Shown: piece by piece, positions 1 through 18,693 of the stretch | Layout: the number at the start of each line of letters is the position of its first letter | Numbering within the stretch: position 1 is the stretch's first letter | DNA from: Spiribacter halobius | GTDB taxonomy: Bacteria > Pseudomonadota > Gammaproteobacteria > Nitrococcales > Nitrococcaceae | DNA length: 64,000 nucleotides | NCBI RefSeq assembly: GCF_020883455.1 | Contig: NZ_CP086615.1 | Coordinates: 3,960,501 to 4,024,500 of the forward strand | Direction: 5' to 3' | Position numbers and translations under genes: made by a program | Notes under the pieces: generated by a model | Told to the model about the DNA's origin: nothing | Databases searched by the model: none | What the model saw: only the letters and a program-made list of their open reading frames with translations

Positions 1-1768
1 CCTGCAGGCGGACTACCGGAACCGGGACGATCACGTCTTCCTGCAGACGGCGGCGGCGCGCTTCGGCATGCATTTCGCGACGCCGGGGACGGGCGTTTCC
101 CACCCCGTGCACATGGAGCGGCTCGGGGTGCCGGGGGCGGTCCTTGCGGGCTCGGATTCCCATACCTGCGCGGCGGGATCGCTTGGGATGCTCGGCTTCG
201 GCGCCGGCTCGGTGGAGATCGCCAGCGTCCTCGCGGGCGAGCCCCTCAGCATCCGCATGCCCGAGATCATGGGCATCCGCCTCACCGGCCGTCTGCCGGC
301 CTGGGTGAGCGCCAAGGACGTGATCCTGGAGCTGCTGCGGCGGCACAGCGTCAAGGGCGGCGTCGGCCGGATCCTGGAGTACTACGGGCCCGGGGTGGAG
401 ACCCTCACGGCCATGGACCGGCATGTCATCGCCAACATGGGCGCGGAGCTCGGGGCGACCACCAGCATCTTTCCGAGCGACGAACAGACCCGACGGTTCC
501 TCGAAGATCATGGCCGCGGCGACGCCTGGGTGCCGCTCAGCGCGGATGCCGAAGCCCGCTACACCCACCATGACGAGATCGACCTCGGCGCGCTGGAACC
601 TCTCATCGCCACGCCCTCCAGCCCGGACAACGTGGTACCCGTACGCGAGGTGGCCGGCACGCCGGTGCATCAGTCCTATATCGGCTCCTCCGCCAACCCC
701 GGCTACCGGGACCTGGCCATCGCCGCGCTCATGGTCCGCGACCGCCAGGTCCATCCGCAGGTGTCCTTCGATCTCAACCCGGCCTCCCGCCAGGTGCTGA
801 CGGATCTGGCCAACGAGGGCCTGCTCACCGAGCTGCTGAAGTGCGGCGGGCGGCTGCACCAGACCGGCTGCAATGGCTGCATGGGCATGGGCCAGGTGCC
901 GGCCACCGACCAGAACAGCCTGCGCACGACCCCGCGCAACTTCCCCGGGCGATCCGGTATTGCCGACGATCACGTCTATCTCTGCAGCCCGGAGACCGCG
1001 ACCGCGGCGGCGCTCACCGGCGAGATCACCGACCCGCGGGCGCTCGCGGAGCGCCTCGGGCTTGAGTGGCCGGGCGCCGAGCTGCGGCCCCGCGAGCCAG
1101 CCGCCGAGGCATCGGCGCTGCTGCCGGTGCTGCCGCCGCAGCAGGCGCGCCGGGTGGAAATCCGCAAGGGGCCGAACATCGCCGATCTGCCAGCCATAGA
1201 GCCGCTGACGGACACCCTATCGCCGGAAACGCTGCTCCGGCTCGGCGACAACGTCTCCACCGACACCATCTCCCCGGCGGGCGCCGAGGCCATGCCCTAC
1301 CGCTCCAACGTCCAGGCCATCAGCCAGTTCTGCTTCCGGGACGTCGATCCGGAGTACCCGAATCGGGGGTGGGCGACGCGGGACGGCGCCGGCCATGCCC
1401 TCGTCGCCGGGTACAACTACGGCCAGGGGTCGAGCCGCGAGCACGCGGTGCTCGCCCCGCGCTACCTGGGCCTGCGCCTGGTGCTCGCACGGAGCTTCGC
1501 CCGCATCCACCAGCAGAATCTCGTCAACGCCGGCGTGCTGGCGCTGACCTTTGCCGATCCGGCGGACTATGAGCGTCTGGAGGCGGGAGACGTACTGACC
1601 GTGCATGACGTCCACGGTCAGGTGGATGCCGGCGCGGAGGTCATGGTGGAGGTCCCGGCGAAAGGCCTGAGCATCGCGGCCCGCCACGGCATGTCGGCGC
1701 GTCAGCGCGAGATCTTCCACGCCGGTGGCCTGATCAACTGGCTGCAGGCGCGGGTGGCGACAGCCTAG
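1..1768 (+). CDS. Aconitate hydratase family protein (5' end outside window)
   Basis: This is a [4Fe-4S] hydro-lyase of the aconitase family, which interconverts citrate and isocitrate or related acids. The reading frame is open from base 2, giving 588 visible residues. Aligned with the complete paralogue at 60060-61997 it lacks about the first 67 residues. Visible motifs are SDSHTCAAGS (first cluster cysteine), TGCNGCMGMGQ (CxxC pair) and the swivel-domain motif NYGQGSSREH. Its stop shares the four bases CTAG with the stop of the convergent rhodanese gene. Next to a Tct transporter operon it may process an imported tricarboxylate rather than serve the core TCA cycle; that is inference. The family is certain, the exact substrate is not. 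Confidence 0.93.
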   Translation, partial: LQADYRNRDDHVFLQTAAARFGMHFATPGTGVSHPVHMERLGVPGAVLAGSDSHTCAAGSLGMLGFGAGSVEIASVLAGEPLSIRMPEIMGIRLTGRLPAWVSAKDVILELLRRHSVKGGVGRILEYYGPGVETLTAMDRHVIANMGAELGATTSIFPSDEQTRRFLEDHGRGDAWVPLSADAEARYTHHDEIDLGALEPLIATPSSPDNVVPVREVAGTPVHQSYIGSSANPGYRDLAIAALMVRDRQVHPQVSFDLNPASRQVLTDLANEGLLTELLKCGGRLHQTGCNGCMGMGQVPATDQNSLRTTPRNFPGRSGIADDHVYLCSPETATAAALTGEITDPRALAERLGLEWPGAELRPREPAAEASALLPVLPPQQARRVEIRKGPNIADLPAIEPLTDTLSPETLLRLGDNVSTDTISPAGAEAMPYRSNVQAISQFCFRDVDPEYPNRGWATRDGAGHALVAGYNYGQGSSREHAVLAPRYLGLRLVLARSFARIHQQNLVNAGVLALTFADPADYERLEAGDVLTVHDVHGQVDAGAEVMVEVPAKGLSIAARHGMSARQREIFHAGGLINWLQARVATA

Positions 1769-3393
1769 GCGAACCGGAGCGGCGGGCTACGCCGGCGCGG
1801 CGGGACCAGCCGGAAATGCGCCCGCTCGCCCGGCGAGAGGGCGGCCACGAGGCCGTGCTCCCAGGCAAGATAGCGCTTCGCCGCCTCCAGGTTGCCGTGA
1901 TGGCGGTCGTGGACGAAAAACAGGAAGTCCAGGCACTCACCGTCAGAGGGCGTGCCGGGGCTCGCGGTCACCGGCTGGCCGGCGTTCTGCCAGGCCTCGA
2001 CGCCCCCCGCAAGCACCGCGACATCGCTGAAGCCCAGCGCGGACAGGTCCTTGGCCAGCAGGTCGGCCGGGCCTTCGCCCCGCCCCATCAGGCGCACGGG
2101 GCGGGTACGGTCGCGGTCCGCCGCCAGCGCCGGCAACCGCGGGCGGATCACCCACTCAGCCTGGGGAGCGTGGGCCTTGCGGTAGTCCATGCCCGGCTGG
2201 CAGTCCAGCAGCCATGGGGGCTCGGCCGCCGCAAGCTCCGCAACGAGAGCCGGAACGTCGAGGCGGCGTGCGGGTGAGGGCGCCACCGGCGCCGGTGTCG
2301 AGCCGGACTCGGTGGCCCACCAGGCGGCCTCGCCGCCGGCAAGCACGGCGACCTCGAAATCCATCTGCGCGAGCCAGAAAGCGCACGCCGCGGCCCGCAC
2401 CTCGGTATCGTCCACCAGCACCAGGCGTGCCCGGCGCACGCCGACCCACTGGTCCGTCGCCTGAATGAGCTGGCCACCCGGCGCCGAGACCGCGCCCTCG
2501 AGATGGCCGCGCTGGTACTCCCGCGGGTCGCGGACGTCGAGGAGATAGGTGGTGCGCCCGCTGTCATCCAGCCAGTCCCTGACCTGGGCGGCCGACAGGC
2601 GCCGGACTCCGGCGCGCTCGGCCATGGCCTGGGCCTGCCGCCGCCGGGTCTCGAGGTCGGGCGGGGGCGCATCCGTCGCTACCCGACGCTCGGCGCCATG
2701 GTCCAGCTCCATGCCGGCGAGGCGCCAGCCCATCGTGCCATTGCGCAGAGCGTACACGGGATTGTTCACCCCGAGCTGGCGAAGCATCTCGCAGCCGATG
2801 AGGCTGCGCGTGCGCCCGGCGCAGTTGACCACCACCGGCGTCTCGTCGTCGGGCACCAGCTCCCCTATCCGGTAGGGCAGCTCGGCATTGGGGCAGGACA
2901 TCGCGCCAGGAATGCTCCAGGCGTGGTACTCCTCCCAGGGCCGGCCGTCCAGCACCAGCACCCGCTCGCCCCGCCGCTGTCGCTCGGCGAGGGCCTCCGG
3001 CGTGAGGCTTGGCGTGCCGTAGGCGGCCTCCACCAGCTCGCCCAGGGTCTTGCTCGGCACGTTGACGCCGGCAAAGATGCCATAGCCGGCTGCCCGCCAG
3101 CCCTCGAGGCCGCCATCAAGCCGCGCCACGTCGGTATAACCCAGGGCCTCGGCCGCCTCCGCGGCCGCCCCGGCCACCGCGCCATCGGCCTGATCGTAGA
3201 TCACCAGGCGAACGCGGCGGTTGGGCACCCGCCGCGGCAGATCCAGCTCGAAGCGCGACCACGGCACCGAGACGCAGAAGAACAGATGCCCCTCGCCGTA
3301 CTCACCGTGCTCCCGGGCATCGACGACGGCGATCTCGCCGCCGTCGCCCAGCATCCGCTCGAGGGTCTCGGGGGAGACATGGCGGCCCGTCAT
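1765..3393 (-). CDS. Four-domain rhodanese-like sulfurtransferase
   Basis: 542 residues carry four tandem rhodanese-homology domains (about 1-110, 120-235, 265-365 and 378-475). Only domain 2 has a catalytic loop with cysteine (CAGRTRS, Cys191). The equivalent loops in domains 1, 3 and 4 lack it (for example YDQADG and VDDTEVRA). The family transfers sulfane sulfur to thiophilic acceptors, so one active and three structural domains are expected. There is no signal peptide, so a cytoplasmic location is likely. The gene starts 4 bases after the tctA stop and is probably co-transcribed with the transporter, which suggests a sulfur-containing substrate or a thiol-linked step. The C-terminal tail of about 60 residues (DFLFFVHDRHHG) is outside the rhodanese fold. 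Confidence 0.9.
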   Translation of the reverse strand: MTGRHVSPETLERMLGDGGEIAVVDAREHGEYGEGHLFFCVSVPWSRFELDLPRRVPNRRVRLVIYDQADGAVAGAAAEAAEALGYTDVARLDGGLEGWRAAGYGIFAGVNVPSKTLGELVEAAYGTPSLTPEALAERQRRGERVLVLDGRPWEEYHAWSIPGAMSCPNAELPYRIGELVPDDETPVVVNCAGRTRSLIGCEMLRQLGVNNPVYALRNGTMGWRLAGMELDHGAERRVATDAPPPDLETRRRQAQAMAERAGVRRLSAAQVRDWLDDSGRTTYLLDVRDPREYQRGHLEGAVSAPGGQLIQATDQWVGVRRARLVLVDDTEVRAAACAFWLAQMDFEVAVLAGGEAAWWATESGSTPAPVAPSPARRLDVPALVAELAAAEPPWLLDCQPGMDYRKAHAPQAEWVIRPRLPALAADRDRTRPVRLMGRGEGPADLLAKDLSALGFSDVAVLAGGVEAWQNAGQPVTASPGTPSDGECLDFLFFVHDRHHGNLEAAKRYLAWEHGLVAALSPGERAHFRLVPPRRRSPPLRFA

Positions 3394-3397
3394 CGCG

Positions 3398-4924
3398 TCA
3401 GCTCCCGCTGTCGGTCTGCTGGGTGGCCCGCTTAGCGCGGAAGCTGAAGCGCCGCCGCAGCCAAGGACCGAGAATCGGGCTGGAGAGGCTCAGCGCCGTC
3501 AGCACGAAGAACAGATTGGCGATCCAGCTGTGGAAGAACAGCGTCCAGTCGCTGTCGAAGATGATCATCGCCTGGGACCAGTTCTTCTCCAGCAGGTTAC
3601 CCAGCACCAGCCCCATCACGAAGGGCGCGGGCCCGAAGCCGTGGCGCAGGCCCACGAAGCCCACCAGGCCGGCGATGAGCATGACCCAGACGTCGAACAT
3701 CTGCTGGTTGTAGGCGTAGGCGCCGACCACCGCGAAGATGAACACCGAAGGCCAGAGGAAGGTCCGCGGGATCAGCGTGACCATGGAGAACACCCGCGCC
3801 CCCGCCAGGCCGACGAACAGGAACGCGAAGTTCGCGATCAGCATGGCGGCGAAGATCGCGTAGAGGATCTCCGGGGTTTCGCGCATCAGGAACGGACCCG
3901 GGCGGAAACCGTGCATGATCAGCGCCGCCAGGATGACGGCGGTGGTGCCGCTGCCGGGGATGCCCAGGGCCAGGGTGGGCACCATGGCGCCACTGGTGCC
4001 GGCGTTGTTGGCCGCCTCGGGGCCGGCGATGCCCTCGATGGAGCCCTTGCCGAACTCCTCCGGATGCTTCGACCAGCGCTTGGCCTCGTTGTAGCCCATG
4101 ATCGCCGCCACCGTGGTGCCCTCGGCGGGCAGGATGCCGACGATGGTGCCGATGCCCGAGGAGCGCAGGATGGTGGCCCAGGTGCGGCGCAGGTCGTCCC
4201 GGCCGGGCAGCTTGATGGCGAGGTTCTTCACCCGTTCCATGATCTGCTCGGGCGCCTGGGACTGCTTGAGCATCTCGGAGATGGCGAACACGCCGATCAG
4301 CACCGGCACGAAGTCGATGCCGTCGTACAGCCAGGTGGTGCCGAAGGTGAAGCGCTCGACGCCGGTGACCAGGTGGATGCCCACCACGCTCACCAGCACG
4401 CCCAGCATCCCGGAGATGAGGTTGCGGGGCGCCGATTTGCCGCTGATCGCCGCCAGCATGGACAGGCCGAACAGGGTGAGCGCGAAATACTCCTGCGGGC
4501 GGAAGCTGAGCGCCACCGCCGCCAGCGCCGGCGCCGCGAAGATGAAGATCACGAGGCTGATAAGCCCGCCGCTGACGCTGGCGATGGCCGCCATGCCAAG
4601 GGCGCGGCCGGCCTCGCCCCGTTGCGCCATCGGATAGCCGTCGAGCGCCGTGGCCACCGCAGGCGGCGCCCCCGGCGCGTTGATCAGGATGGCGGTGATG
4701 GAGCCGCCGAAGGTGCCGGCGCAGTAGAGCGCCGCCATCATGGAGATGGCCACCACCGGCTCCATGCCGAGGGTGAACGGCAGCAGCAGCGCCACGGCCA
4801 TGGTCGAGCTGAGCCCCGGCAGCGCGCCAATCGTCACACCGATGAGCACCGAGAGCATGATCAGCAGCAGGCTCGTCGGCGTCAGGATCAGCGTTACGCC
4901 GGTGACGATCGAATCGATATCCAC
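3398..4924 (-). CDS. tctA: Tripartite tricarboxylate transporter, large membrane subunit TctA
   Basis: 508 residues with about 10-12 hydrophobic segments and the typical TctA signatures, such as GALPGLSSTMAVALLLP near the N-terminus, a duplicated glycine-rich region (GIGTIVGILPAEGTTVAAIMGY) and PEAANNAGTSGAMVPTLALG. TctA forms the transport channel and works with a small membrane subunit and a periplasmic binding protein. It lies between tctB upstream and the rhodanese gene downstream on the same strand. Tct systems carry citrate and many other carboxylates, so the substrate cannot be read from the sequence. A second full set lies at 16585-19641. Confidence 0.95.
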   Translation of the reverse strand: MDIDSIVTGVTLILTPTSLLLIMLSVLIGVTIGALPGLSSTMAVALLLPFTLGMEPVVAISMMAALYCAGTFGGSITAILINAPGAPPAVATALDGYPMAQRGEAGRALGMAAIASVSGGLISLVIFIFAAPALAAVALSFRPQEYFALTLFGLSMLAAISGKSAPRNLISGMLGVLVSVVGIHLVTGVERFTFGTTWLYDGIDFVPVLIGVFAISEMLKQSQAPEQIMERVKNLAIKLPGRDDLRRTWATILRSSGIGTIVGILPAEGTTVAAIMGYNEAKRWSKHPEEFGKGSIEGIAGPEAANNAGTSGAMVPTLALGIPGSGTTAVILAALIMHGFRPGPFLMRETPEILYAIFAAMLIANFAFLFVGLAGARVFSMVTLIPRTFLWPSVFIFAVVGAYAYNQQMFDVWVMLIAGLVGFVGLRHGFGPAPFVMGLVLGNLLEKNWSQAMIIFDSDWTLFFHSWIANLFFVLTALSLSSPILGPWLRRRFSFRAKRATQQTDSGS

Positions 4925-4988: not shown

Positions 4989-5531
4989 CTACCAGAAGAT
5001 GTGGCCGACGATGCCGGGCAGGAACGTTACCCGCAGCACCTCGGAGAAGAACCACATCACCCCCGTAGGGAAGATCACGACATAGGGCACGAGGATCTTC
5101 CAGCGGCGTTCGCCCCAGAGCAGCGGCAATAGCGCAGCAATCATCAGCAGCCCGACAAACGTGCCGAGCCAGGGCATCACGCCGACGAACACCAGCAGCG
5201 CGGCACCGGTCAGGAAGACGATCGGCGGGATGGGCTCGCGGCGATCGCTGTCGAGATCGATCCCGGCCCGCCACTTCTGCCCGAACTCGAAGGGCAGGAT
5301 CAGCGCGATGATCATGATGACGATCAGGACCAGACGCGGGAACGTCGTTGGCTGCACGTTCTGCGCCAGCGACGAGGGCACCGAATCGAAGGCGAAGGTG
5401 CGCGCGAACAGGAGCCCGCAGATGATCAGCACGGCGGCGCTGACGTAGAGGTCGGGGCGGTGGAGACGGGAGAGTGCGGAGCCCGAGGGCTCCGCACTCC
5501 GGTCGCCACGCCCAGTGGGCTGGTCAGTCAT
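4989..5531 (-). CDS. tctB: Tripartite tricarboxylate transporter, small membrane subunit TctB
   Basis: 180 residues with about four transmembrane segments (near residues 28-46, 68-82, 102-140 and 148-170), the usual size and layout for TctB. It follows tctC by 37 bases and precedes tctA by 64 bases on the minus strand. Codons 11-20 contain a 13-bp perfect inverted repeat (5472-5499) that would fold in the mRNA just after the start codon. This may lower membrane-subunit expression relative to the binding protein. The start ATG at 5531 is supported by a purine-rich stretch upstream (AGGGGAGCTG). Confidence 0.9.
   Translation of the reverse strand: MTDQPTGRGDRSAEPSGSALSRLHRPDLYVSAAVLIICGLLFARTFAFDSVPSSLAQNVQPTTFPRLVLIVIMIIALILPFEFGQKWRAGIDLDSDRREPIPPIVFLTGAALLVFVGVMPWLGTFVGLLMIAALLPLLWGERRWKILVPYVVIFPTGVMWFFSEVLRVTFLPGIVGHIFW
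5472..5499 (-). promoter_or_regulatory. Strong hairpin inside the first codons of tctB
   Basis: A perfect 13-bp inverted repeat (arms GAGTGCGGAGCCC and GGGCTCCGCACTC) separated by two bases lies within codons 11-20 of tctB. It is coding DNA, but its position just behind the tctC/tctB junction suits partial termination or slowed translation, giving more binding protein than channel. This is inference. Confidence 0.5.
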
Positions 5532-5568: not shown

Positions 5569-6567
5569 TTAGCGGTCGGTCATGTCGAGCTTGCGCAGGG
5601 CCTCCAGGGAGACCTGGTACTCCTCCTTGATCTGCTTGTCCCAGACGTCGGCGCCGGCGACGTTAGTCTCCGGATCCAGACCGCTGGAGCGCAGATAGTC
5701 CTTGAAGCGCTCGCTGTCCATGCCGGCCAGGATCAGCTGCTCGATCCGCTCGACGATCTCGGGATCGGTCTCACCGTGGACGTAGTAGCCGCGCGTGGTG
5801 GTGACGCTGACCTCATGGCCATGCTCATAGGTCGAGGGGGTATCGGGCAGGTCCCCGACGCGATCGTGGTAGAGCACCGCGATCGGCTTGAGGTCGCCCT
5901 CCTCGATCTGGGCCAGGGCCTCACTGATGTTGGCCAGCGAGGCGTCCACCGCCCCCGAGCGCAGCGAGGTGATCATCTCGCCACCGCTGCCGAACGGCAC
6001 TACGCGGGTCTTGGCGCCGGACTGCTCGGCCCAGCGGGAAATGCCGATGTGCTCGGTACCGCCGACCTGCGCCACGCCCCAGGTGAGGGCCTGGTCCTCG
6101 GACGCCTCGAGGAACTCCTCGTAGGTGTCATAGGGGCTGTCCGGATTGACCACGATCACCGAGGGGTCGTCCATGGCACGCGCCACGCCCTGGATCTGGT
6201 CCATCTCCTTGATCGGGGAGTTGCCCCGGGCAATGGTGTAGAGATGGGTCTGGGTGAGCGCCATGATGGTGTGGCCGTCCGGGCCGCGGCTCATCATGTA
6301 CTCGTGCGCCGCCCGGGCGCCGCCGCCCTGCTTGTAGACGACGCGCATCTCCTCGTCGATGGTTTCGCGCGCGGCGTCAAGCCACATGCGGATCGTGGTG
6401 TCGGTACCACCGCCGGCGGAGGCATGGGAGACCACCTCGATGGTGTCGCAGGGCCACTCCTCGGCGGAGCAGTCCTGGGCACTGGCGGTGAGCGGGGCGG
6501 CGAGCATCGCCGCGGCGGCGACCGCCCCGAGGGCGGCCCGATGGGTCACGTTGGGCGAGTGAATCAT
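5569..6567 (-). CDS. tctC: Tripartite tricarboxylate transporter substrate-binding protein TctC
   Basis: 332 residues from the ATG at 6567. This start was chosen because AGGAGAGGAG lies just upstream and the product then opens with a clean signal peptide (charged start, hydrophobic stretch, cleavage near ASA-Q). A longer open frame upstream has no such features. The mature protein has the Tct/Bug receptor pattern, such as SHASAGGGTDTTIRMW near the N-terminus and RSGAVDASLANISEALAQI. It captures a carboxylate in the periplasm and delivers it to TctBA. It is the first gene of a minus-strand operon tctC-tctB-tctA-rhodanese. A TGTCAACA site lies about 220 bases upstream. Confidence 0.92.
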   Translation of the reverse strand: MIHSPNVTHRAALGAVAAAAMLAAPLTASAQDCSAEEWPCDTIEVVSHASAGGGTDTTIRMWLDAARETIDEEMRVVYKQGGGARAAHEYMMSRGPDGHTIMALTQTHLYTIARGNSPIKEMDQIQGVARAMDDPSVIVVNPDSPYDTYEEFLEASEDQALTWGVAQVGGTEHIGISRWAEQSGAKTRVVPFGSGGEMITSLRSGAVDASLANISEALAQIEEGDLKPIAVLYHDRVGDLPDTPSTYEHGHEVSVTTTRGYYVHGETDPEIVERIEQLILAGMDSERFKDYLRSSGLDPETNVAGADVWDKQIKEEYQVSLEALRKLDMTDR

Positions 6568-6847: not shown

Positions 6848-7729
6848 TCACCGGCTAAAGAACCCCACCAGCTCAGTATAGGTTTCGTCCGGGCACTGTT
6901 CCGCCGGGTAGTGGCCCGACGGCAGACGTCGCCCACCGGCGATATTGCGCGCATACGGCGCCCAGGCCTCCAGCGGGCGAAAGCTGCGCTCGACGTGGCT
7001 GCGCTCGCCCCAAAGCACCAGCACGGGGCACTCGATCAGCCGTCCGGCCTCCAGATCCTCCGCGTCCATCTCGAAGTCCGGCCCGATGGCGGCCCGGTAG
7101 TCCTCGCACACGGCATGGATGTTCTCCGGCGTGCAGCAGCGGACATACTCCGCCAGCACCTCCTCGGTAAAGCCGCCAAGCCCTACCCCCGGCTTGTTCA
7201 GCTTGCGACGGATGTAGTAGTCCTCGCGTCCGGCCAGCAGTTGCTCCGGGAAGTCGTAGGGCTGCGCCATGAAGAACCAGTGGTAGGACGCCCGGGCCCA
7301 TTCGCGGGTGATGTGGGTGAGCACCCAGTGGGTGGGCACGATGTCCAGACTCGCCAGCCGCAGGACCCGTTCCGGGTGGTCCAGTGCCATGCGGTAACCT
7401 GCGCGCGCACCCCGATCGTGGCCGGCCACCAGAAAGCGCTCGAAGCCGAGCGCCGCCATGACCTCGACGCCATCCTGGGCCATCCGGCGGAAGGTATAGG
7501 TGCTGTGGTCGGGCTCGCCGAAGGGCTTGTCGCTGTCCCCGTAGCCGCGCAGATCGATGGCGACCACGGTGAAGTCCTCGGCCAGGCGCGGCGCGATCTT
7601 GTGCCACATGACATGGGTCAGCGGATTGCCGTGCAGGAGCAGCAGCGGCGGGCCGCTGCCGCCGTGGCGCAGATGGATGGTGACGCCGTCACTGACCGTG
7701 ACGCGTCGCTCGGTGAAGTGCTCGAACAC
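6848..7729 (-). CDS. Alpha/beta hydrolase resembling fluoroacetate (haloacetate) dehalogenase
   Basis: 293 residues with an alpha/beta-hydrolase fold: oxyanion motif LLHGNP (32-37), nucleophile elbow GHDRGAR with Asp105 rather than Ser, and base His273. Residues that define fluoroacetate dehalogenases appear in order: Asp105, Arg106 and Arg109 (carboxylate binding), Asp129 (acid in SLDIVPT), His150-Trp151 (halide pocket) and Tyr211. These enzymes hydrolyse 2-haloacids to 2-hydroxyacids in the cytoplasm. Some homologues act on other esters or epoxides, so activity is predicted rather than proven. It lies upstream of the tct operon on the same strand and divergent from the enolase-superfamily gene. 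Confidence 0.78.
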   Translation of the reverse strand: MFEHFTERRVTVSDGVTIHLRHGGSGPPLLLLHGNPLTHVMWHKIAPRLAEDFTVVAIDLRGYGDSDKPFGEPDHSTYTFRRMAQDGVEVMAALGFERFLVAGHDRGARAGYRMALDHPERVLRLASLDIVPTHWVLTHITREWARASYHWFFMAQPYDFPEQLLAGREDYYIRRKLNKPGVGLGGFTEEVLAEYVRCCTPENIHAVCEDYRAAIGPDFEMDAEDLEAGRLIECPVLVLWGERSHVERSFRPLEAWAPYARNIAGGRRLPSGHYPAEQCPDETYTELVGFFSR

Positions 7730-7974: not shown

Positions 7975-9087
7975 ATGAAGATCAAGGATATCCGCGCCAG
8001 CCTCCATACCACCTCCATCGAGATCCCGCTGCTCGAGGGCCGCGTATCCGGCTACGGGCGCGAGGAGCAGAAGCTGTTCGTCGTCTGCGAGGTGGAGACC
8101 GACGAAGGCATCACCGGCATCGGGCTGACCGGGCACTTCCTGGCCCACTCGGTGGTGGCCGCGCTGGAGAAGCATTTCCTGCCGGTGGTGCGCGACATGG
8201 ACCCCCGCGATCTGGAGGCCATCCACCAGCGGGTGTTCGCCAAGCTCAACCCGCGGGCGATGACCGGCACCGTGTCCATGGCGCTGTCCTGCCTCGACAT
8301 CGCCCTCTGGGATATCCAGGGCAAGCACGCCGGGCGCTCGGTGGCCCAGCTCCTCGGCGCCGCGCGCGACCACGCCCCGGCCTACGTCACCTTCGGCTTT
8401 CCGCAGTACGACCGCGAGCAGCTGGCCGAGGCGGCCCGGCTGCATGTCCGCAACGGCTTCAGCGCGCTGAAGAGCGTGGTGGCGGTGGACAAGGGCGGCT
8501 GGCGCGAGGATGCGGCGCGGGTGCGCGTGATCCGGGAGGCCGTGGGGGACGACGTCGACATCATGATCGACGCCAACTACCTCTTCAATCCGGTGGAGGC
8601 GAAGATGCTCTGCCGGGCCATCGAGGACTGCAACATCACCTGGTTCGAGGAGCCGCTGCAGCAGAACGACGCCCGCGCCCTGGCGGACCTGCGCCGCAGC
8701 ACCCGCATTCCCCTCGCCGCCGGGCAGATGGAGGGCCACCGCTGGCGCCTGCGGGAGCTGGTGGAGAAGCAGGCGGTGGACATCCTGCAGCCCAACGTCA
8801 CCTACTGCGGCGGCTACACCGAGGCGCGCAAGGCGGCCCACCTGGCCCAGACCTACAACATGCCCATCGCCAACGGCGGCGGCTGGCCGCTGTTCAACAT
8901 GCACATGATGGCGGGGCTGATGAACGGCTGGATCGTGGAGTGGCACCTCGGCATGGTGTCGGTCGGCGAGAGCATCTTCGTCGACCCGCCGCGCCCGGAG
9001 AACGGCGTGATCCGCATCCCGGACGCCCCGGGCCTGGGGCTGACCGTGGACCGCGACGGCCTGAAGGAGACCCGGGTCGAGGGGTGA
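7975..9087 (+). CDS. Enolase superfamily (mandelate racemase/muconate lactonizing type) protein
   Basis: 370 residues from the ATG at 7975, preceded by GGAAGAGAG. A longer open frame upstream runs through the operator and was rejected. The N-terminal capping domain (about 1-125) is followed by a TIM barrel. Metal ligands Asp199 (MIDAN) and Glu225 (WFEEP) are present. The third ligand position reads AAGQME, so it is either Gln251 or a shifted Glu253. The KxK motif is reduced to Lys166 (LKSVV), and the histidine expected near residue 299 is replaced by NGGG. The family abstracts a proton alpha to a carboxylate, giving racemases, dehydratases and cycloisomerases. The substrate is unknown. Confidence 0.88.
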   Translation: MKIKDIRASLHTTSIEIPLLEGRVSGYGREEQKLFVVCEVETDEGITGIGLTGHFLAHSVVAALEKHFLPVVRDMDPRDLEAIHQRVFAKLNPRAMTGTVSMALSCLDIALWDIQGKHAGRSVAQLLGAARDHAPAYVTFGFPQYDREQLAEAARLHVRNGFSALKSVVAVDKGGWREDAARVRVIREAVGDDVDIMIDANYLFNPVEAKMLCRAIEDCNITWFEEPLQQNDARALADLRRSTRIPLAAGQMEGHRWRLRELVEKQAVDILQPNVTYCGGYTEARKAAHLAQTYNMPIANGGGWPLFNMHMMAGLMNGWIVEWHLGMVSVGESIFVDPPRPENGVIRIPDAPGLGLTVDRDGLKETRVEG

Positions 9088-9138: not shown

Positions 9139-9278
9139 GGTGCCACGCTCAGGAGCCCTGTGCTTCCGAGGGGACGCGCCTTCCCCGTGCACAGGGAACC
9201 CGTCCACGAGGCCACGCGGAATCCGCGACGCTGCCAGGCAAGGGCGCTCGGTGCCAGGGTCAGGAGCCGTGTGCCTCC
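9139..9278. repeat. 29-base direct repeat flanking a degenerate hairpin copy
   Basis: GGTGCCANGNTCAGGAGCC-NTGTGCNTCC occurs at 9139-9167 and again at 9250-9278 with four mismatches. The second copy overlaps the left arm of the large hairpin at 9258. The DNA between them (GGGACGCG, a CGTCCACGAGGCC stretch and the small hairpin CGCGGAATCCGCG) looks like a decayed copy of the same element. Confidence 0.6.
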
Positions 9279-9369
9279 CGGCGGGACACGTCGTGAATCC
9301 GTCCATGGAGACTCCACTGCGACATCCCTGTCGCAGAGGGTCCCGCCGGGAGGCACACGGCTCCTGACC
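9258..9369. repeat. Large two-tier hairpin repeat, copy 1
   Basis: Two perfect 30-base arms (9258-9287 and 9340-9369) enclose a 52-base core with its own hairpin, CTGCGACA-TCCC-TGTCGCAG (9317-9336). Read on the minus strand, the core is nearly identical to copy 2 at 9648-9757, while the arms differ entirely. It lies between the convergent enolase-family and dehydrogenase genes, so it could act as a bidirectional terminator. Confidence 0.85.
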
Positions 9370-9647
9370 GGCCGACGCTGGTGCTCGCCGCCGCGGGATT
9401 GGGGACGGGCAGCAGAAGTAGTCGTAGGTCTGGAACCGCCGCAGGCGGTACCCGACACGCCGGCAGGCGAATCGGCGGACCTGATTAGCAACGAGCTTCA
9501 GGTATGCCGCCCGCCGGTATCGGCGCGGCGGCGGGCACTCACGTCGGCCGAGCGAGGCGGGGCAGTACTCGCGTAGGTCGTGCGCGGCGCAGCTGCGTGC
9601 GACATCCCTTTGCCCGGCCCCTCGCGGATCGGCCACCGCGCGTTACA
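9370..9647. other. Non-coding spacer between hairpin copies
   Basis: No convincing gene is seen. Open frames exist on both strands but have no ribosome-binding site and no recognisable protein pattern. At 9596-9607 the string TGCGACATCCCT repeats part of the copy-1 core, suggesting another decayed element copy. Confidence 0.5.
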
Positions 9648-9757
9648 GGCCGGCCTCGTGTCCGGGGCGGCGGGACCCTCTGCGGCAGGGATGCCGCAGT
9701 GGAGGCTACATGGATGTATCCACGCCGTGTCCCGCCGCCCCGGACACGAGGCCGGCC
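9648..9757. repeat. Large two-tier hairpin repeat, copy 2
   Basis: Two perfect 29-base arms (9648-9676 and 9729-9757) surround a core with the inner hairpin CTGCGGCA-GGGA-TGCCGCAG (9680-9699) and then GGATGTATCCACGCCGTG. The inner stem differs from copy 1 by a compensating base-pair change (GC here, AT there), so structure appears to be conserved. Near 9820-9834 TCCCGCCCCACTTGC resembles the reverse complement of the stub sequences at 16368 and 21439. Confidence 0.85.
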
Positions 9758-9864
9758 CCGGCACCACCACAGGCTGTCTCTGACGCCTCCGCGGGCATCG
9801 GGCCTACAGCACCTGACTGTCCCGCCCCACTTGCCCCGCAGGACGCAGTCCACGTCCCGTCAGA

Positions 9865-10944
9865 CTACAGAACCGCCGCCTCGATCCGCCTCGCCACCGC
9901 CTGGCCGACCTCGCCCGTAGACGCGCTGCCGCCTAGGTCCGGGGTCATGACGCCGTCCTGCTCGAGCACCGACACCATGGACTCCTGCACCAGCTCCGCC
10001 GCCCGGTGCAGGCGGTCGTCCCCGTGCTTCTGACCGAGCCAGTCCAGCAGCATGGCGCCGGAGACGATCATGGCGTAGGGGTTGGCGACGCCGCGGCCGG
10101 CGATATCCGGTGCCGAACCGTGGGTAGCCTGGGCCATGGCGTGATCGTCGCCGGCGGAGAGCCCCGGCGCGAGCCCGAGACCACCGACCAGGCCGGCGGT
10201 GAGGTCGGAGAGGATGTCGCCGAACATGTTGGTGGTGACCACCACGTCGTAGTCCGAGGGCTTCATGGTCACCTTCATGGCGAAGGTGTCGACGATGACC
10301 TCGTTGTACTCCACGTCCGGGTAATCGGCGGCCACCTTCCGGCACTCCTCGGCGAACATCCCGCAGCCAAGCTTGAACACCGTGTTCTTGTGCACGGCGG
10401 TGACCTTGCTGCGCCGGCGGCGGGCGAGCTCGAAGGCGGACAGGGCCACGGCGCGGGAGTTCTTGCGGGTGATCACCCGCACCGAGATGGTGGTGTCGTG
10501 GGTCGGGCGGAACTCGCCGCAGCCGGCGACCACGTTGCGATCCGGCTGAAAGCCCTCGGTGTTCTCGCGCACGATCACGAGGTCCGTGTCCCGGTGGATC
10601 GCGGGCAGGCCCTTGAGCGCCCGCGACGGCCGGATATTCGAGTGCAGCTCGAAGTGCTTGCGCAGTATCGGGTGCGGATTGACCGCCCGCGGATCGTCCG
10701 GGTACTCGCGGTGGCCGATGGGCCCCAGCACCCAGCCGTCCAGCCCGGCGAGCTGCTCCAGTGTGCCGTCGGGCATGGTGGTGCCGAGCTGGTCATAGGC
10801 GGGGCGGCCGATGGGCATGTCGAGCCATTCCGCCGTGACGCCGACGCGTTGCAGCGCGGCCTTCATCGCACGCACTGTTTCCGGGACAACCTCGAGGCCG
10901 ATGTCATCCCCTTCCAGTACGCCGATCCGGTAATTGTCCTTCAT
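9865..10944 (-). CDS. Isocitrate/isopropylmalate dehydrogenase family protein
   Basis: 359 residues of the NAD(P)-dependent beta-decarboxylating dehydrogenase family. Substrate-loop residues RENTEGF (126-132), catalytic Lys186 (HKNTVFK) and metal-binding aspartates in [10 protein letters not shown] (Asp243, Asp247) are visible. The Tyr usually found near residue 132 in isopropylmalate dehydrogenases is Phe, and the sequence continues QPDRN, so the substrate is probably not isopropylmalate. Tartrate, a substituted malate or an isocitrate-like acid are options. Start ATG 10944 has GGGGGAG upstream. It follows the GntR gene by 89 bases on the same strand and is likely in its regulon. Confidence 0.88.
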
Positions 10945-11033: not shown

Positions 11034-11726
11034 CTAGCCGGACTCACCGCTTGCGTGCCGCTCCTCCTCTTCCCGGCTGCGCGCGGGATGGGCCAGCATG
11101 CGGCGCATGCCCCCCTCGACGTGGGCATGCAGCGCCGCGAAGGCGACCTGCGGCTGGCCGGAGGCGATCCCCGCGACGATGTCCCGATGCTCGCGATTCG
11201 ACTCCTCCAGGCTGCCCGGCTGCACGAGGCCCGTGGTCCGGAACAGGTGCAGCTGGTCCACGAGCGTCTGGTAGATCCGGACCAGCTCGGGGTTCTCCGT
11301 CGCCTCGAGGATGGCCCGGTGGAAGTCCAGGTTGGCGGGGTAGTAGTCCGCCACGTCGCCGGACGCCACGATGGCCTCCATGTTCTCCAGCATCGCGGTC
11401 AGGCGTTCGATGAACGCCGGATCCGGGTTGCGGGCCAGCAGATACCCGGCGTAACCGAAGACCCCGGCGCGTGCCTCGTATAGCTTCTTCGCCTGCTCGA
11501 CGCTGATCTTGCGCACGAAGGCGCCGCGATTGGGGATCACCGTGAGGAATCCCCGCTCCGCCAGTCCCCTGCAGGCCTCCCGGATCGGGCCGCGGCTTAC
11601 GCCGAAGGTATTGGCGAGGGCGACCTCGTTGATGCGGTCGCCCATGCGGAGCTCGCCGCGGGCGATCATCCGCTCGATCTCGGCGCGAATCGCCGACGTC
11701 AGTCCCTGCACCTGGATCCTTGTCAT
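11034..11726 (-). CDS. GntR family regulator with FCD domain (FadR-like)
   Basis: 230 residues from the ATG at 11726, which has GGGAG 10 bases upstream; a longer frame without these features was rejected. A winged-helix DNA-binding domain occupies about residues 10-75 (FGVSRGPIREACRGLAERGFL). An all-helical FCD effector domain follows, with acidic and histidine positions typical of metal-dependent carboxylate sensing (for example NLDFHRAILEATENPE). FCD regulators usually repress operons for organic acid catabolism and are relieved by the substrate. It sits in the middle of the island, and a 19-bp palindrome lies 183-201 bases upstream of its start, so autoregulation is plausible. Confidence 0.93.
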   Translation of the reverse strand: MTRIQVQGLTSAIRAEIERMIARGELRMGDRINEVALANTFGVSRGPIREACRGLAERGFLTVIPNRGAFVRKISVEQAKKLYEARAGVFGYAGYLLARNPDPAFIERLTAMLENMEAIVASGDVADYYPANLDFHRAILEATENPELVRIYQTLVDQLHLFRTTGLVQPGSLEESNREHRDIVAGIASGQPQVAFAALHAHVEGGMRRMLAHPARSREEEERHASGESG

Positions 11727-11908
11727 TGCGTCAGTACTCCCGTCCCGTCTCCCGCGGGCGTTCTCAGGCTTCGGTCGCGTCTCGACCGCCGGCATTCTAG
11801 CCTGCCGAGCCTGCCACGCCACCGACGGGGGCGCCGCCGTCTCCTCGCGCCTTTGGCATCGGGCGGCCCGGGAGTGCTGATAAACCGAGCCTCGCAGAGG
11901 CGGGCCAT

Positions 11909-11944: not shown

Positions 11945-13021
11945 CTACGCCGAGCGTCCCCCCAGCACCGCCGCCTTCTCCCAGAGCGTGGTGATCGGCG
12001 CCGCAAAGGCGTTGACGACGAAGATCCGCAGGATCTGGAAGCTGGCCACGATGGGCACGGAGAGCCCGAGCGCGCCGGCCGTGAGCACCATCTCGGTAAT
12101 GCCGGCCGGAGCGCCGGCGAGGGCAAGCGTGTACGGGTCGAGGCCCGTCGCCAGGGCCACCAGCACCGCGCTCGTCAATGTGCAGGCGGAGGTGGTCAGG
12201 GACACCAGCAGCCCCACGACAGCCACCCGCGGCAGGCGGACGATGTCCTCGCGCCGGAAGCGGGCACCGATGGACAGGCCGATGGAGACCTGCGCGGCCA
12301 CCACCAGGATGCCCGGTACGGTGGCGTGCAGCAGGCCGGTGGCGGTGTCGGTGAGGGAGACCAGCAGGGCACCCAGGATGAAGGCGTTCTTCACGCCGAT
12401 GCGCTGAAGCACCCAGCCCGCCGCGAGGCCCAGGGCGAGGATCGCCACGGTCTCGACGCCAATGGTGGCATGGCCCTGGCCGAGCGCCATGCTCTCGCCG
12501 GTGGTGCCCATGAGCAGCGCCATGCCGAACGGGATCAGCACCACCATGGAGGTCAGGCGCATGGTCTGCACCACGGCGATCATGGGGCTGGTGGGCTTGC
12601 CCATCTCCTGGGCGAGGAAGGCCATCTCCGCCACGCCGCCGGGCATGTTGGCGAGCAGCGCCGAGGTGCGGTCCATGCCGGCGAAGCGCACCAGCAGCAG
12701 CGAGCAGATCGCGGCCATCAGCACCGACCACAGCGCCATGCCGACCATCAGCGGAATCAGGGCGACCAGTGCGCCCATGACCCCGGCCGAGAAGCTGTGG
12801 CCGATGGCCGTTCCGATGACCGTCTGGGATAGGCGCCGCACCTTGCCGGACTCCGGCGCGGCCCAGCCGCTGAGGGCGGCTGTCGCGGAGACCGCAAGCG
12901 GGCCGAGCAGCCAGGGCAGGGGCATGCCGAGGCCACTGCCGAGCCAGCCGGCCACCATACCGGCGGCCGCCACCACGCCCCAGTGCGCGATCGCCCGAGC
13001 CGCCGCCCTCACGCGGGACAC
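11945..13021 (-). CDS. AbrB-duplication family membrane protein
   Basis: 358 residues, very hydrophobic, with two similar halves each containing a GMPLPWLLGPL-like or glycine-rich helix pair. This is the AbrB_dup family, often misnamed ammonia monooxygenase or AbrB regulator. It is an inner-membrane protein with about 9-10 helices and unproven transport function, often found beside Tct transporters and organic-acid genes. It lies between mmgE/prpD copy 1 (86-base gap containing a hairpin) and gntR on the same strand. In this context a transport or efflux role for a carboxylate is plausible. Confidence 0.85.
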   Translation of the reverse strand: MSRVRAAARAIAHWGVVAAAGMVAGWLGSGLGMPLPWLLGPLAVSATAALSGWAAPESGKVRRLSQTVIGTAIGHSFSAGVMGALVALIPLMVGMALWSVLMAAICSLLLVRFAGMDRTSALLANMPGGVAEMAFLAQEMGKPTSPMIAVVQTMRLTSMVVLIPFGMALLMGTTGESMALGQGHATIGVETVAILALGLAAGWVLQRIGVKNAFILGALLVSLTDTATGLLHATVPGILVVAAQVSIGLSIGARFRREDIVRLPRVAVVGLLVSLTTSACTLTSAVLVALATGLDPYTLALAGAPAGITEMVLTAGALGLSVPIVASFQILRIFVVNAFAAPITTLWEKAAVLGGRSA

Positions 13022-13107: not shown

Positions 13108-14541
13108 CTAGCGCGCCAGCAGCGGCGTCAGCTCCCGCACGGAGCCGATCGACTCCAGCTCCCGCACCGCCTCGACGATGCGCTCGGTACGGGCGCTGTC
13201 CCAGCGGGCGAACTCCGCGCAGCCGCGGAACTTGTCCGCCGCCTCATCGTAGGTCATGGGGTTGGCGGGGCTGCCCTTGCCGAAGTCGGCGCGGCCCGAG
13301 ATGGTCCGCCCGTCCTTCAGGTGGATGTCGATGATGGTGGTCATCTTGTCGTAGCCGGCGGCCTCGGCCTCCGGATGCACGCCGAAGTGCACGCGGCCGA
13401 TCAGCTCCTGGACGTCGGCGCGGTTGACCACCTCGTCGGTGAACTCCGGCAGCCCCCCGCGGCGCTCCAGCAGCAGGATCGCCATGCAGAACTCCATCGA
13501 GAACTTCGCCTGCAGCTCGTTGGTGGGGCGATGATGGATCAGGGCGTTGGGCATGTTGTGGTTGGTGCCGACGTCGACACGCTCTACCTGCTCCGGCCGG
13601 ATGTCGTTCTCGAGGATGAGCTCCAGCATCTTCGTCATGCCCGGATGCGTCAGCGAGCCCGAGGGGTTCGGCTTGATGGACACGCCCGGCTCGATGAACG
13701 TCCAGGGATTGCCGAGCTTGCCGTGGATCGCCTCGAGCATGAAGCCGCCGCCGTGGGCCTGGAAGAAGCCGCGCGGGGACTCGAGGATGCGGTCCGTTGC
13801 GGTCCAGCCGGCGCGGGCGAAGTCCACGGCCACCACCCCGGACTCCGAGGAGCGCCCGGCGTGGAAGGGCTTGGTCATGGTGCCGAAGTTCTCCCGCAGG
13901 CCGGCCGACTGCGAGGCCGCAATGCCCAGCGCCCGCAGGGTGGTCTCGAGATCCAGCCCGCGCAGCCGGGCCGCGGCCGCCGCGGCGGCGAAGGTGCCGC
14001 AGGTGGCGGTGGCATGGAAGCCGTGCTGATAGTGCCGGGGCGAGATCGCCTCGGCGATCTTCGTCTCCACCTCGACGCCGATCTGATAGGCGAGCATCAG
14101 GTCGCGGCCGGACAGATCGTTCACCTCGGCGATGGCAAGCGCCGCCGGCAGGCAGGGGGCGGTGGGGTGGGTCAGCAGGCCGTAGACCCGGTCCTTGTGC
14201 ACCGCCAGCTGCGTGTCGTCGTAGTCGTCGGCGTGAATGCCGACGCCGTTGGCGAAGGCGGCGAAGCGCTCGGGCACCTTCATGTCGGTGCCGATCACCG
14301 TCGCCTCGCCGCGCACGCCCTGGCCGGCGAGATACTGCTGCACGATGCGCCCGCTCTCGGCGACGGAGCCCGAGAGCGCGAGGCCGAAGCCGTCCAGGAT
14401 CGACTTGCGGCCCAGATCCAGCAGCTCCGTCGAGAGCGCCGAGAAGGGCGTGTTGAGCACGAACTCGGCGACTTCCCGGGTCAGACCCTCGGCGTGCTTG
14501 GAATCGATGTCCGGCGTGTAGTGCTTGATGTCGTCAGCCAT
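13108..14541 (-). CDS. MmgE/PrpD family protein, copy 1
   Basis: 477 residues with the full MmgE/PrpD pattern: helical domain 1 with the active-site region DDYDDTQ and VYGLLTHPTAP, the small lid domain (NFGTMTKPFHAGRSSESG, SIKPNPSGSLTH) and a helical C-terminus (FRGCAEFARWD). The family includes 2-methylcitrate dehydratase, cis-aconitate decarboxylase and iminodisuccinate epimerase, all acting on small polycarboxylates without a cofactor. It is divergent from copy 2, with two operator-like sites between them. The substrate cannot be assigned; association with aconitases and Tct transporters suggests an aconitate-like acid. Confidence 0.88.
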   Translation of the reverse strand: MADDIKHYTPDIDSKHAEGLTREVAEFVLNTPFSALSTELLDLGRKSILDGFGLALSGSVAESGRIVQQYLAGQGVRGEATVIGTDMKVPERFAAFANGVGIHADDYDDTQLAVHKDRVYGLLTHPTAPCLPAALAIAEVNDLSGRDLMLAYQIGVEVETKIAEAISPRHYQHGFHATATCGTFAAAAAAARLRGLDLETTLRALGIAASQSAGLRENFGTMTKPFHAGRSSESGVVAVDFARAGWTATDRILESPRGFFQAHGGGFMLEAIHGKLGNPWTFIEPGVSIKPNPSGSLTHPGMTKMLELILENDIRPEQVERVDVGTNHNMPNALIHHRPTNELQAKFSMEFCMAILLLERRGGLPEFTDEVVNRADVQELIGRVHFGVHPEAEAAGYDKMTTIIDIHLKDGRTISGRADFGKGSPANPMTYDEAADKFRGCAEFARWDSARTERIVEAVRELESIGSVRELTPLLAR

Positions 14542-14723: not shown

Positions 14724-14855
14724 TGCCCGGGGCGCCGGCACGCTCCCGGAGGAAACCGGCTGCGGGAGCGGCCCCCTACCCTTGTTCCTGGCCCGGCGAT
14801 GGGGCGGCCCCGCTGGCGGCCCTGGCACCGGACAGGGCCCACCCAGGACGGAATC

Positions 14856-16265
14856 ATGAGCACATCCCACGCCATCACCGATCAGGCCGTCGCCTTCGTC
14901 GAGGGCCTCGCTTACGAGCGCCTTCCCGAAGAGGCCGTTCACCTCGGACTGCGCTGCATCCTGGACAGTGTCGGCCTTTACATCGCCGGCACCACCGAGC
15001 ACTCGGTGCGGATCCTCATCGACGAGGCCCGCGACCAGGGCGGCCGGGCGGACGCCACCCTCCTCGGCGCCACGGATACGCGTGTCCCCGCGGCCATGGC
15101 GGCCCGGGTGCTGGGGACCGCGGGCCACGCCCACGACTGGGACGACACCCAGGTCTCCCACGACCCGGCCCACGTCTACGGTCTGCTCACCCACCCTTCG
15201 GTGCCACCGCTGACCGCTACCCTGGTGATGGCGCAGCGCCTCGGGGGTGTCGATGGGCGGCGCTTCATGACCGCCTTCCTGGCCGGCTTCGAGGTCGAGT
15301 GCAAGATCTCCGAGTGGATGAAGCCGGACCACTACCGCCGCGGCCACCATACCAGCGGCAACGTCGGCACCTTCGGCGCCGCCGTCGCCGCCGCCAGCCT
15401 CATCGGCCTTACCGGCGAGCGGCTGCGCCACGCCCTGGGCATGGCGGCGAGCTTCTCCGCCGGCATCCGCTGCAACTTCGGCACCATGACCAAGCCGCTG
15501 CATGTGGGGCGGGCCGCGGAGAACGGCGTCATCGCCGCACTGCTCGCCGAGCGCGGCTTCACCGCCGACCCGACGCCGCTGGACGGGCGCTGGGGCTACC
15601 TGCAGGTCATGGGCAACGGCTTCAGCGAGGAGAAGGTGGCCGAAGGCTTCGCCAATCCCCTGACCATCGTCTCCCCGGGGGTGAGCATCAAGCCCTACCC
15701 GTCGGGCATCCTCACCCACCAGTCCATGGACGCCATGCTCAAGCTGGTGACCGACCACGACGTGAAGCCGGACGAGGTGGAGCGCATCACCTTCTACGCC
15801 GGCAGCAACATCCTCGAGCCGATCCGCTACGACATCGCCGAGAATCACCTGCAGGCGAAGTTCTCCATGGCCGCTCTGCTGGCAATGATGGTGCTCTACC
15901 GGGGGGCGGGGCGGCGCGAGTTCACCGACGAGTGCGTCGGCTCGGCGGCGATGCAGGACATGCAGCGGCGCATCACGACCCAGCTCGACCCGGAGATCGA
16001 GGCCCGGGGCTTCGACCGCATCCGTTCCCGGATCGAGCTGGTGACCCGCGATGGCAGGACCCTGACCCAGTGGGCCGACGAGCGCTATCGCGGCGGCCCC
16101 TCCCTGCCCATGACCGACGACGAGGTCGCCGACAAATTCCGCGCCTGCACCGACGGCCTGCTCAGCGCGGCGCGCCAGCAGGCCGTCATCGACGGCGTCA
16201 TGGGCCTCGTGGCGCTGGACGACACCGCCGTCATCGGCGACTGGCTGCGGGTACAGCCGGCCTGA
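14856..16265 (+). CDS. MmgE/PrpD family protein, copy 2
   Basis: 469 residues from the ATG at 14856, preceded by AGGACGG. Motifs parallel copy 1: HDWDDTQVSHDPAHVYGLLT, HHTSGNVGTFGAAVA, NFGTMTKPLHVGRAAENG and VSIKPYPSGILTH. It is therefore a cofactor-independent polycarboxylate dehydratase, decarboxylase or epimerase. It is transcribed divergently from copy 1 and its overall likeness to it suggests an old inverted duplication followed by divergence. It ends in a convergent gap containing large hairpin copy 3. Confidence 0.88.
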   Translation: MSTSHAITDQAVAFVEGLAYERLPEEAVHLGLRCILDSVGLYIAGTTEHSVRILIDEARDQGGRADATLLGATDTRVPAAMAARVLGTAGHAHDWDDTQVSHDPAHVYGLLTHPSVPPLTATLVMAQRLGGVDGRRFMTAFLAGFEVECKISEWMKPDHYRRGHHTSGNVGTFGAAVAAASLIGLTGERLRHALGMAASFSAGIRCNFGTMTKPLHVGRAAENGVIAALLAERGFTADPTPLDGRWGYLQVMGNGFSEEKVAEGFANPLTIVSPGVSIKPYPSGILTHQSMDAMLKLVTDHDVKPDEVERITFYAGSNILEPIRYDIAENHLQAKFSMAALLAMMVLYRGAGRREFTDECVGSAAMQDMQRRITTQLDPEIEARGFDRIRSRIELVTRDGRTLTQWADERYRGGPSLPMTDDEVADKFRACTDGLLSAARQQAVIDGVMGLVALDDTAVIGDWLRVQPA

Positions 16266-18093: not shown

Positions 18094-18121
18094 TGCTGTC
18101 CTCCGGCGGTATGGGGCGCGC

Positions 18122-18634
18122 TCACTGGAACAGTGTCCCGACGGGCAGGCGCACGCCGAATAGCACGCCGAATAGCAGGTAGAGCCCGGCGGTGATGCCG
18201 GCGGCCGCAAGCGGCGCCTTTACCGGATGGCGCTGCCCGAGCACGGTAATGAAATACGTGAAGGCCACGAACGAGCTGAGGAGGAAGCCGATGACGGGCA
18301 TCAGCCAGACGTAGGCCACGAGGCCGGCGGCATAGGCGAGCACTCGCCGGATGGACTCCGGCGCCGGTTCCGCCGTGTCCTCCTCCTCGCGGCGGGTTGC
18401 CGGGGTGCCGGGTTTCGGCGCCGCCGCCTGGCCGCCCGGCACGCCGATGCCAAGCAGGCCGGTAATCGCCAGCGCCGCGCCGAGCAGGGCCAGCACCACC
18501 GCCAGCGCCTTCGGCAGGAAGGCGCCGCCAAGGGGATCCAGAGCCCCCGCCGTGGGCAGCGACAGCGCCATCCAGTACACCCAGCCGGCGAACGCCACAC
18601 AGGCGAGGCCGGAGGCGACGTTGACTCGATTCAT
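18122..18634 (-). CDS. tctB: Second TctB small membrane subunit
   Basis: 170 residues from the ATG at 18634 (MNRVNVASG), with four predicted membrane segments and a hydrophilic central linker near residues 70-92 (PKPGTPATRREEEDTAEPAPE). Another in-frame start farther upstream lies inside tctC and is less likely. It follows tctC by 59 bases, a gap filled by a GC-rich hairpin, and precedes tctA by 28 bases. Confidence 0.88.
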   Translation of the reverse strand: MNRVNVASGLACVAFAGWVYWMALSLPTAGALDPLGGAFLPKALAVVLALLGAALAITGLLGIGVPGGQAAAPKPGTPATRREEEDTAEPAPESIRRVLAYAAGLVAYVWLMPVIGFLLSSFVAFTYFITVLGQRHPVKAPLAAAGITAGLYLLFGVLFGVRLPVGTLFQ

Positions 18635-18655
18635 TGCTTCCGCCCCTGAGAAAGG

Positions 18656-18686: not shown

Positions 18687-18693
18687 GCCGCCG

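Follow-up and report, generated by a model that had tools for sequence, protein, structure and literature searches.

Characterised relatives of the hydrolase

In the alpha/beta-hydrolase fold, Asp nucleophiles such as those of haloalkane dehalogenases, epoxide hydrolases and fluoroacetate dehalogenases (FAcDs) act on halides and epoxides. Six characterised FAcDs were aligned in this work: H-1 (the dehH1 product, plasmid pUO1), FA1 (1y37), RPA1163 (3r3u), NOS0089 (3qyj), DAR3835 (8sdc) and the D4B enzyme 9c9f, which we take to be DeHa4. All six carry the same set of eight catalytic and halide-pocket residues.

The first five are entered in a review table as active on fluoroacetate, NOS0089 being listed for both fluoro- and difluoroacetate, and fluoroacetate kinetics are quoted for DeHa4 of D4B in PMC12184663. 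Roles of the catalytic and halide-pocket residues of FA1 and RPA1163 are given in PMC11022551. At the dehH1 locus on pUO1 a methyltransferase gene, a thioesterase gene and crcB adjoin the dehalogenase gene, and an arrangement like that of dehH1 is reported for the fluoroacetate cluster of Caballeronia S22 in PMC11812338.

The hydrolase and its catalytic residues

The window, a stretch of 64,000 nucleotides from Spiribacter halobius, encodes a hydrolase of the FAcD-like family at 7729..6848. The open reading frame lies on the minus strand, which the initial annotation had not given, and specifies 293 aa; a Shine-Dalgarno-like GGGGGAG stretch precedes the GTG start codon at 7729, and the stop codon is located at 6848.

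The residues D105, R106, R109, D129, H150, W151, Y211 and H273 were read directly in the translation, the nucleophile motif D105-R106-G-A-R109, with the nucleophilic Asp and two Arg, being encoded at 7403..7417 (minus strand). The octet aligns one to one with D110, R111, R114, D134, H155, W156, Y219 and H280 of RPA1163 (offsets of 5-8) and with D105, R106, R109, D129, H150, W151, Y213 and H272 of H-1 (offsets of 0-2). The initial annotation had described FAcD residues in the known order and spacing, with offsets of 2-8 residues, and the alignment broadly bears this out: the Asp-His-Asp triad (D105/H273/D129), the Arg pair (R106/R109) and the halide pocket (H150/W151/Y211) are all present.

In phmmer searches the best structure was 3qyj (NOS0089/Alr0039; E = 1e-91), followed by the D4B FAcD 9c9f and by RPA1163 (3r3u; E = 2.6e-76), with 4nvr and FA1 lower in the order. 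The eight residues are kept in all 80 relatives fetched, out of 249 found. Because of these E values and this conservation, a chance occurrence of the motif was ruled out. The identity of a haloalkane dehalogenase was rejected as well, the scores falling below the curated NCBIfam cut-offs (70.1 bits against 241, 50.3 against 265 and 48.2 against 466).

An AlphaFold2 model of the hydrolase was obtained with 46 homologues (the alignment for clade X, defined below, held 46 of the 81 sequences then at hand) and reached a mean pLDDT of 92.3. It superposes over its full length on the FAcD structures at 1.2-1.5 A overall (280-291 residues, Z 42-45), with a TM of 0.95 to 3qyj and VIA-align Z values of 44.6 to 9c9f and 44.5 to 3qyj. 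The structural overlay that had been proposed for this gene thus gives agreement at the level of the fold, and the assignment of family, fold and catalytic residues is supported. Structural comparison does not set FAcDs apart within the family. Matches 45-50 of the structural search come from Pseudomonas aeruginosa and bear the title putative epoxide hydrolase; MFA is bound in some of them.

The residue set in the family

We searched 398 genomes of the phylum and found 96 homologues at E <= 1e-60 in 78 genomes. The full set of eight residues occurs in 71 of the 96, spread over 62 genomes, and the remaining 25 deviate at one to three sites (for example WW for HW in nine, PW in six). The set is therefore a mark of the family and not a rarity, and the implication of the initial annotation that it singles out this gene does not hold. 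The genome of S. halobius itself encodes a second hydrolase with the full set (L002, 52% identical) and a third homologue (39% identical) with the residues DRRD-YF-F-H.

In the branch of 4nvr (L142, L182, L190, L195, L199, L202, L208, L224 and L227; nine of the 96 sampled hydrolases) Trp-Trp replaces His-Trp in the halide pocket, and the solved member 4nvr was deposited as a putative acyltransferase. The homologue on plasmid pSCAT of Streptantibioticus cattleyicolor (L090) reads DRLD-HL-YH, so that Arg is lost at its second site and Trp from the halide pocket; this organism is known, as Streptomyces cattleya, to produce fluoroacetate.

A separate clade with a probably altered pocket

In a FastTree phylogeny of 136 sequences, 86 are set apart from the rest by a branch whose SH-like support is 100. 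This group, here called clade X, consists of the window hydrolase, L009-L088, two plasmid loci and three sampled genomes. In an IQ-TREE analysis of 65 chosen rows, with the S. halobius L003, the S. cattleya row and L095-L108 among those omitted, the 30 clade-X rows form one clade (100/100), from which the six characterised FAcDs and 4nvr are excluded with the same support. The grouping with characterised FAcDs that would favour EC 3.8.1.3 was not recovered; clade X stands separate.

All eight residues, the His-Trp-Tyr halide pocket among them, are intact in 86/86 clade-X rows. The differences lie at other positions. Asn35 (7625..7627, minus strand; F40 in RPA1163) and Ser244-His245 (6995..7000, minus strand; G252-I253 in RPA1163, G244-Q245 in H-1) are each found in every clade-X row and in 0/50 others, and Met154 is found in 86/86 versus 1/50. 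The segment from Lys176 to Pro180 is encoded at 7190..7204 (minus strand). Lys176, which corresponds to K181 of RPA1163, is invariant in clade X but occurs in 17/50 other rows too, while Lys179 is present in 84/86 clade-X rows versus 1/50 others. Pro180 occupies the position of the gate Trp W185 of RPA1163; a Trp at this gate is found in 0/86 clade-X rows versus 23/50 others, and 9c9f is also without it. The gate residue is uncertain in four of the 96 sampled rows, which have gaps in the loop.

Some of these positions have been targets of engineering. Ser147, Trp180, Gln245 and Met246 of H-1 are described as targets near the active site in PMC12955510, and the titles of recent PDB entries refer to RPA1163 variants at K181 and W185 solved with bulky alpha-fluoro acids. 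We infer that the clade-X pocket is altered at the wall that sets its size and charge, with an unchanged catalytic centre, and that the substrate is likely to be a larger and more negatively charged activated carboxylate than fluoroacetate.

NOS0089, RPA1163, FA1, H-1 and DAR3835 share with the window hydrolase the fold (for H-1 by sequence only), the Asp-His-Asp triad, the Arg pair and the His-Trp-Tyr pocket. They differ from it in lying outside clade X, in having the gate Trp, in carrying Phe or Tyr at position 35 and in lacking His at 245. The D4B 9c9f group, to which the S. halobius paralogue L002 belongs, resembles the window hydrolase in having the full set and no Trp gate, and several of its members adjoin a tartrate dehydrogenase gene; it differs in its Arg gate, His at 35 and Val or another residue at 245, and it forms another clade with other neighbours.

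The gene neighbourhood in the window

Genes for a tripartite tricarboxylate transporter lie downstream from the hydrolase on the same strand: a TctC-type solute receptor (5569..6567; the frame is open from 6696, and the likely start at 6567 is 280 bp past the hydrolase stop), TctB (4989..5531) and TctA (3398..4924). The link to carboxylate transporters that had been noted for this gene is therefore real. Further along the same strand, at 1765..3393, is a tandem rhodanese protein with four rhodanese stretches and a single Cys loop of the catalytic type (C191, CAGRTR); a relative of it directly follows the clade-X hydrolase in many alphaproteobacterial loci.

On the other side and divergent from the hydrolase, an enolase-superfamily (MR_MLE) dehydratase-like protein is encoded at 7975..9087 on the plus strand. 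The divergent pair recurs in L119 (77% identity), and the MR_MLE protein gave no clear substrate. Beyond it, on the minus strand, are an isocitrate/isopropylmalate/tartrate-dehydrogenase-like enzyme (IsoDH; 9865..10944), whose nearest PDB entries are (homo)isocitrate dehydrogenases, a GntR/FCD regulator (11034..11822), an AbrB-duplication membrane protein (11945..13021) and PrpD1, a protein of the MmgE/PrpD family (13108..14541) with IDS-epimerase as best PDB match, followed by cis-aconitate decarboxylases. A second MmgE/PrpD-family protein, PrpD2, is encoded on the plus strand at 14799..16265. Past PrpD2 is a second tripartite tricarboxylate transporter set (16585-19641, minus strand), with TctA at 16585-18210 and TctC at 18694-19641.

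Between 1700 and 9200 one terminator-like site was found (3836-3824), with 2.0 expected, and no promoter-like site, so that no operon boundary was set from such signals. The intergenic region 9139-9760 contains two perfect inverted repeats with arms of 29-30 nt and loops of 52 nt, plus longer imperfect pairs. Part of one arm, 27 bases long, recurs four more times in the genome, each copy having 2-3 mismatches, and a reversed control gave none; the repeats are possibly a REP-like element.

Recurrence of the carboxylate cluster with clade X

Among the 398 genomes, a clade-X hydrolase (identity of at least 58%, the next match having 52%) occurs in four (G000, G121, G202 and G416). PrpD1 orthologues (E <= 1e-150) are confined to the same four. 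IsoDH matches at E <= 1e-75 were obtained in 12 genomes, and the best four of these (at least 59% identity, the next 48%) are again the clade-X genomes. In the four genomes the hydrolase is separated from PrpD1 by 5.3-15.1 kb and from IsoDH by 2.1-10.1 kb. The chance that two random sets of three among 397 genomes coincide is 1e-7, the genome of S. halobius being excluded and relatedness ignored.

The neighbourhood was also compared at 82 clade-X loci, two added plasmid loci included, of which 53 are at least 14 kb long, and at 33 control loci with other FAcD-type hydrolases (26 from a random sample, five from relatives and the two S. halobius paralogues). At the 53 large loci, genes were found for PrpD1 in 21, IsoDH in 15, PdxA in 31, rhodanese in 11, tartrate dehydrogenase in 19, TctA in 19, GntR in 22 and AbrB in 16. 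Tartrate dehydrogenase was found at 7/33 control loci, and each of the other seven markers at 0/33. Most marker queries were the window's own genes, so these counts favour clusters like that of the window. PrpD1, IsoDH, tartrate dehydrogenase, PdxA and rhodanese were all absent by the criteria used from 15 of the 53, and a carboxylate context is therefore not universal in clade X.

The neighbour genes of clade-X hydrolases recur across classes. A similar set is found on plasmids of Phyllobacterium and Neorhizobium, where the annotations read tartrate dehydrogenase, PdxA, either MmgE/PrpD or 2-methylcitrate dehydratase, either alpha/beta hydrolase or haloacetate dehalogenase, and transporters of the TTT and ABC types.

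Among 115 relatives searched, 14, the genome of S. halobius included, contain a match to the hydrolase at E <= 1e-60; none of the 14 matches fetched from the 13 others is placed in clade X by the tree. Two small genomes of the same family (L109 and L110; 84% and 86% complete) encode PrpD1 at 84-85% identity together with PrpD2, TctABC, GntR and AbrB, and at E <= 1e-60 neither of these partly complete genomes has a match to the hydrolase. The core cluster, and its pathway, may therefore exist without the hydrolase.

Fluoroacetate as a possible substrate

The initial annotation stressed C-F bond cleavage. The gene could be a true fluoroacetate or monohaloacetate dehalogenase that serves detoxification of, or growth on, haloacetates, next to carboxylate genes that are there incidentally. 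The complete residue set agrees with this, as do the listed activity of the closest structure, NOS0089, on fluoro- and difluoroacetate and the fluoroacetate activity listed or quoted for all six characterised enzymes with the set, 9c9f being assumed to be DeHa4. Against it are the separate clade with its altered pocket positions and the recurrence of the carboxylate neighbours across classes.

The surroundings of dehH1 also differ from those of the window hydrolase in their linkage to crcB and thioesterase genes. No crcB, thioesterase or methyltransferase gene is among the 14 window genes compared with Pfam or NCBIfam at 1-19.6 kb. The two CrcB genes of the genome lie at C1:1690461 and C1:3262715, far from the hydrolase at C1:3967351. 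The window gave no Rfam match at a gathering score, and so no fluoride riboswitch was found.

C-F cleavage as the role of this gene is thus not supported, given the separate clade, the missing Trp gate, the clade-invariant pocket changes, the carboxylate-catabolic cluster and the absence of a dehH1-type arrangement; it seems unlikely that fluoroacetate or another monohaloacetate is the main physiological substrate. Some activity on haloacetates, fluoroacetate included, is nevertheless plausible for the hydrolase, since the six characterised enzymes keep the set and are listed or quoted as active on fluoroacetate; it would probably be an incidental side reaction. The hydrolase may well defluorinate fluoroacetate in vitro, and the loss of the Trp gate is no argument against this, because fluoroacetate kinetics are quoted for DeHa4 of D4B, taken to be 9c9f with its Arg gate.

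Linkage to tartrate dehydrogenase in other branches

For this comparison a tartrate dehydrogenase was counted at an identity of at least 61% to that of Phyllobacterium; 72 places were used and those of lower identity left out. In 11 of the 96 sampled hydrolases, all outside clade X, such a gene lies within 1.1 kb on the same contig, in 10 of them within 66 bp, and the strands agree in 11/11 pairs (L127, L129, L130, L133, L136, L137, L145, L181, L183, L195 and L202). Nine of the linked hydrolases have the full set and two the WW variant. Linkage was found in none of 32 rows with a gate Trp versus 11 of 64 other rows (Fisher p = 0.014), and in eight of 29 rows with an Arg gate versus three of 67 (p = 0.003), related genes being treated as independent in both tests. 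The tartrate dehydrogenases of S. halobius itself lie 1.5 Mb and 3.7 Mb from the window hydrolase, the latter 0.44 Mb if the contig is circular.

So close a linkage fits a hydroxy-dicarboxylate product. In the literature covered, from which most subscription papers are missing, no paper appeared to describe a link between dehalogenase, epoxysuccinate and tartrate, which is not proof that none has been published, and none was found that ties such a hydrolase to MmgE/PrpD, tartrate dehydrogenase and tripartite tricarboxylate transporter genes.

Proposed function

Judged from homology, the hydrolase very probably performs C-X or epoxide hydrolase chemistry. Asp105 would be the nucleophile and form an Asp-ester intermediate, with Arg106 and Arg109 holding the substrate carboxylate and His150, Trp151 and Tyr211 stabilising the leaving group; a water molecule activated by His273 and Asp129 would then hydrolyse the ester.

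From the genomic context and the pocket changes we propose, with about even confidence for and against, that the substrate is a di- or tricarboxylate activated by an epoxide or a halogen. The TctCBA transporter would import the epoxy- or 2-halo-di- or tricarboxylate, and the hydrolase would open it to a hydroxy-di- or tricarboxylate of the same type as malate, tartrate or isocitrate. The linked beta-hydroxyacid dehydrogenase would then oxidise this product, which the MmgE/PrpD enzymes would process. In alpha/beta-type epoxide hydrolases, two Tyr of the cap domain give a proton to the epoxide oxygen.

An analogy is offered by the L(+)-tartrate-forming cis-epoxysuccinate hydrolases (CESH[L]), which open the epoxide of a dicarboxylate by way of an ester intermediate; this is a likeness to the proposed reaction and not membership of the same family. 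These enzymes, about 30% identical to L-2-haloacid dehalogenases, are described in PMC6429283 and PMC10869282. A dehalogenase-related scaffold can therefore open a dicarboxylate epoxide. A narrower form of the proposal has the hydrolase as a dehalogenase of the 2-halosuccinate type, which would yield products of the D-malate type by SN2 inversion for the dehydrogenases to consume, epoxides not being substrates. The His-Trp-Tyr halide pocket, kept in 86/86 clade-X rows, agrees with it, and the tartrate dehydrogenase family, linked to the hydrolases of other branches, also oxidises D-malate. Natural halosuccinates are scarce, however, and the annotated genes at 1-19.6 kb include no recognised halide exporter; we regard this form as improbable. 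To our knowledge, CESH[L] is not related to the FAcD-like family.

Some clade-X loci encode SMP30 lactonase-like (12), TauD-like (8) or CoA-transferase (10) genes, which would suit an ester or lactone hydrolase acting on a hydroxy acid with no C-X cleavage, and a distant alpha/beta hydrolase with a Ser nucleophile is described as having both esterase and dehalogenase activity. In 86/86 clade-X rows, however, an Asp takes the place of a Ser nucleophile, and Asp nucleophiles of this fold are generally known for halides and epoxides, which makes such a hydrolase very unlikely here.

We consider clade X with the carboxylate cluster that recurs beside it, together with the hydrolase-tartrate dehydrogenase unit of other branches, more interesting than the residue set. 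A wider proposal, which we put forward as a doubtful one, is that much of the widespread "fluoroacetate dehalogenase" family, clade X and the branches that seem to form two-gene operons with tartrate dehydrogenase among it, would be natural epoxy- or halo-dicarboxylate hydrolases feeding malate and tartrate catabolism, that defluorination would be a side activity specialised in a few Trp-gated branches (dehH1 with crcB), and that clade X would be a dedicated enzyme not described before.

Family labels such as dehH, used for example on the Neorhizobium plasmid, can be taken as a sign of potential for the degradation of organofluorines or PFAS. If the residue set marks a family with mainly other carboxylate substrates, dehalogenase labels overstate defluorination, and the pocket marks of clade X, read together with the dehydrogenase partners, would give a short list of candidate substrates that bears on the function for which these enzymes evolved.
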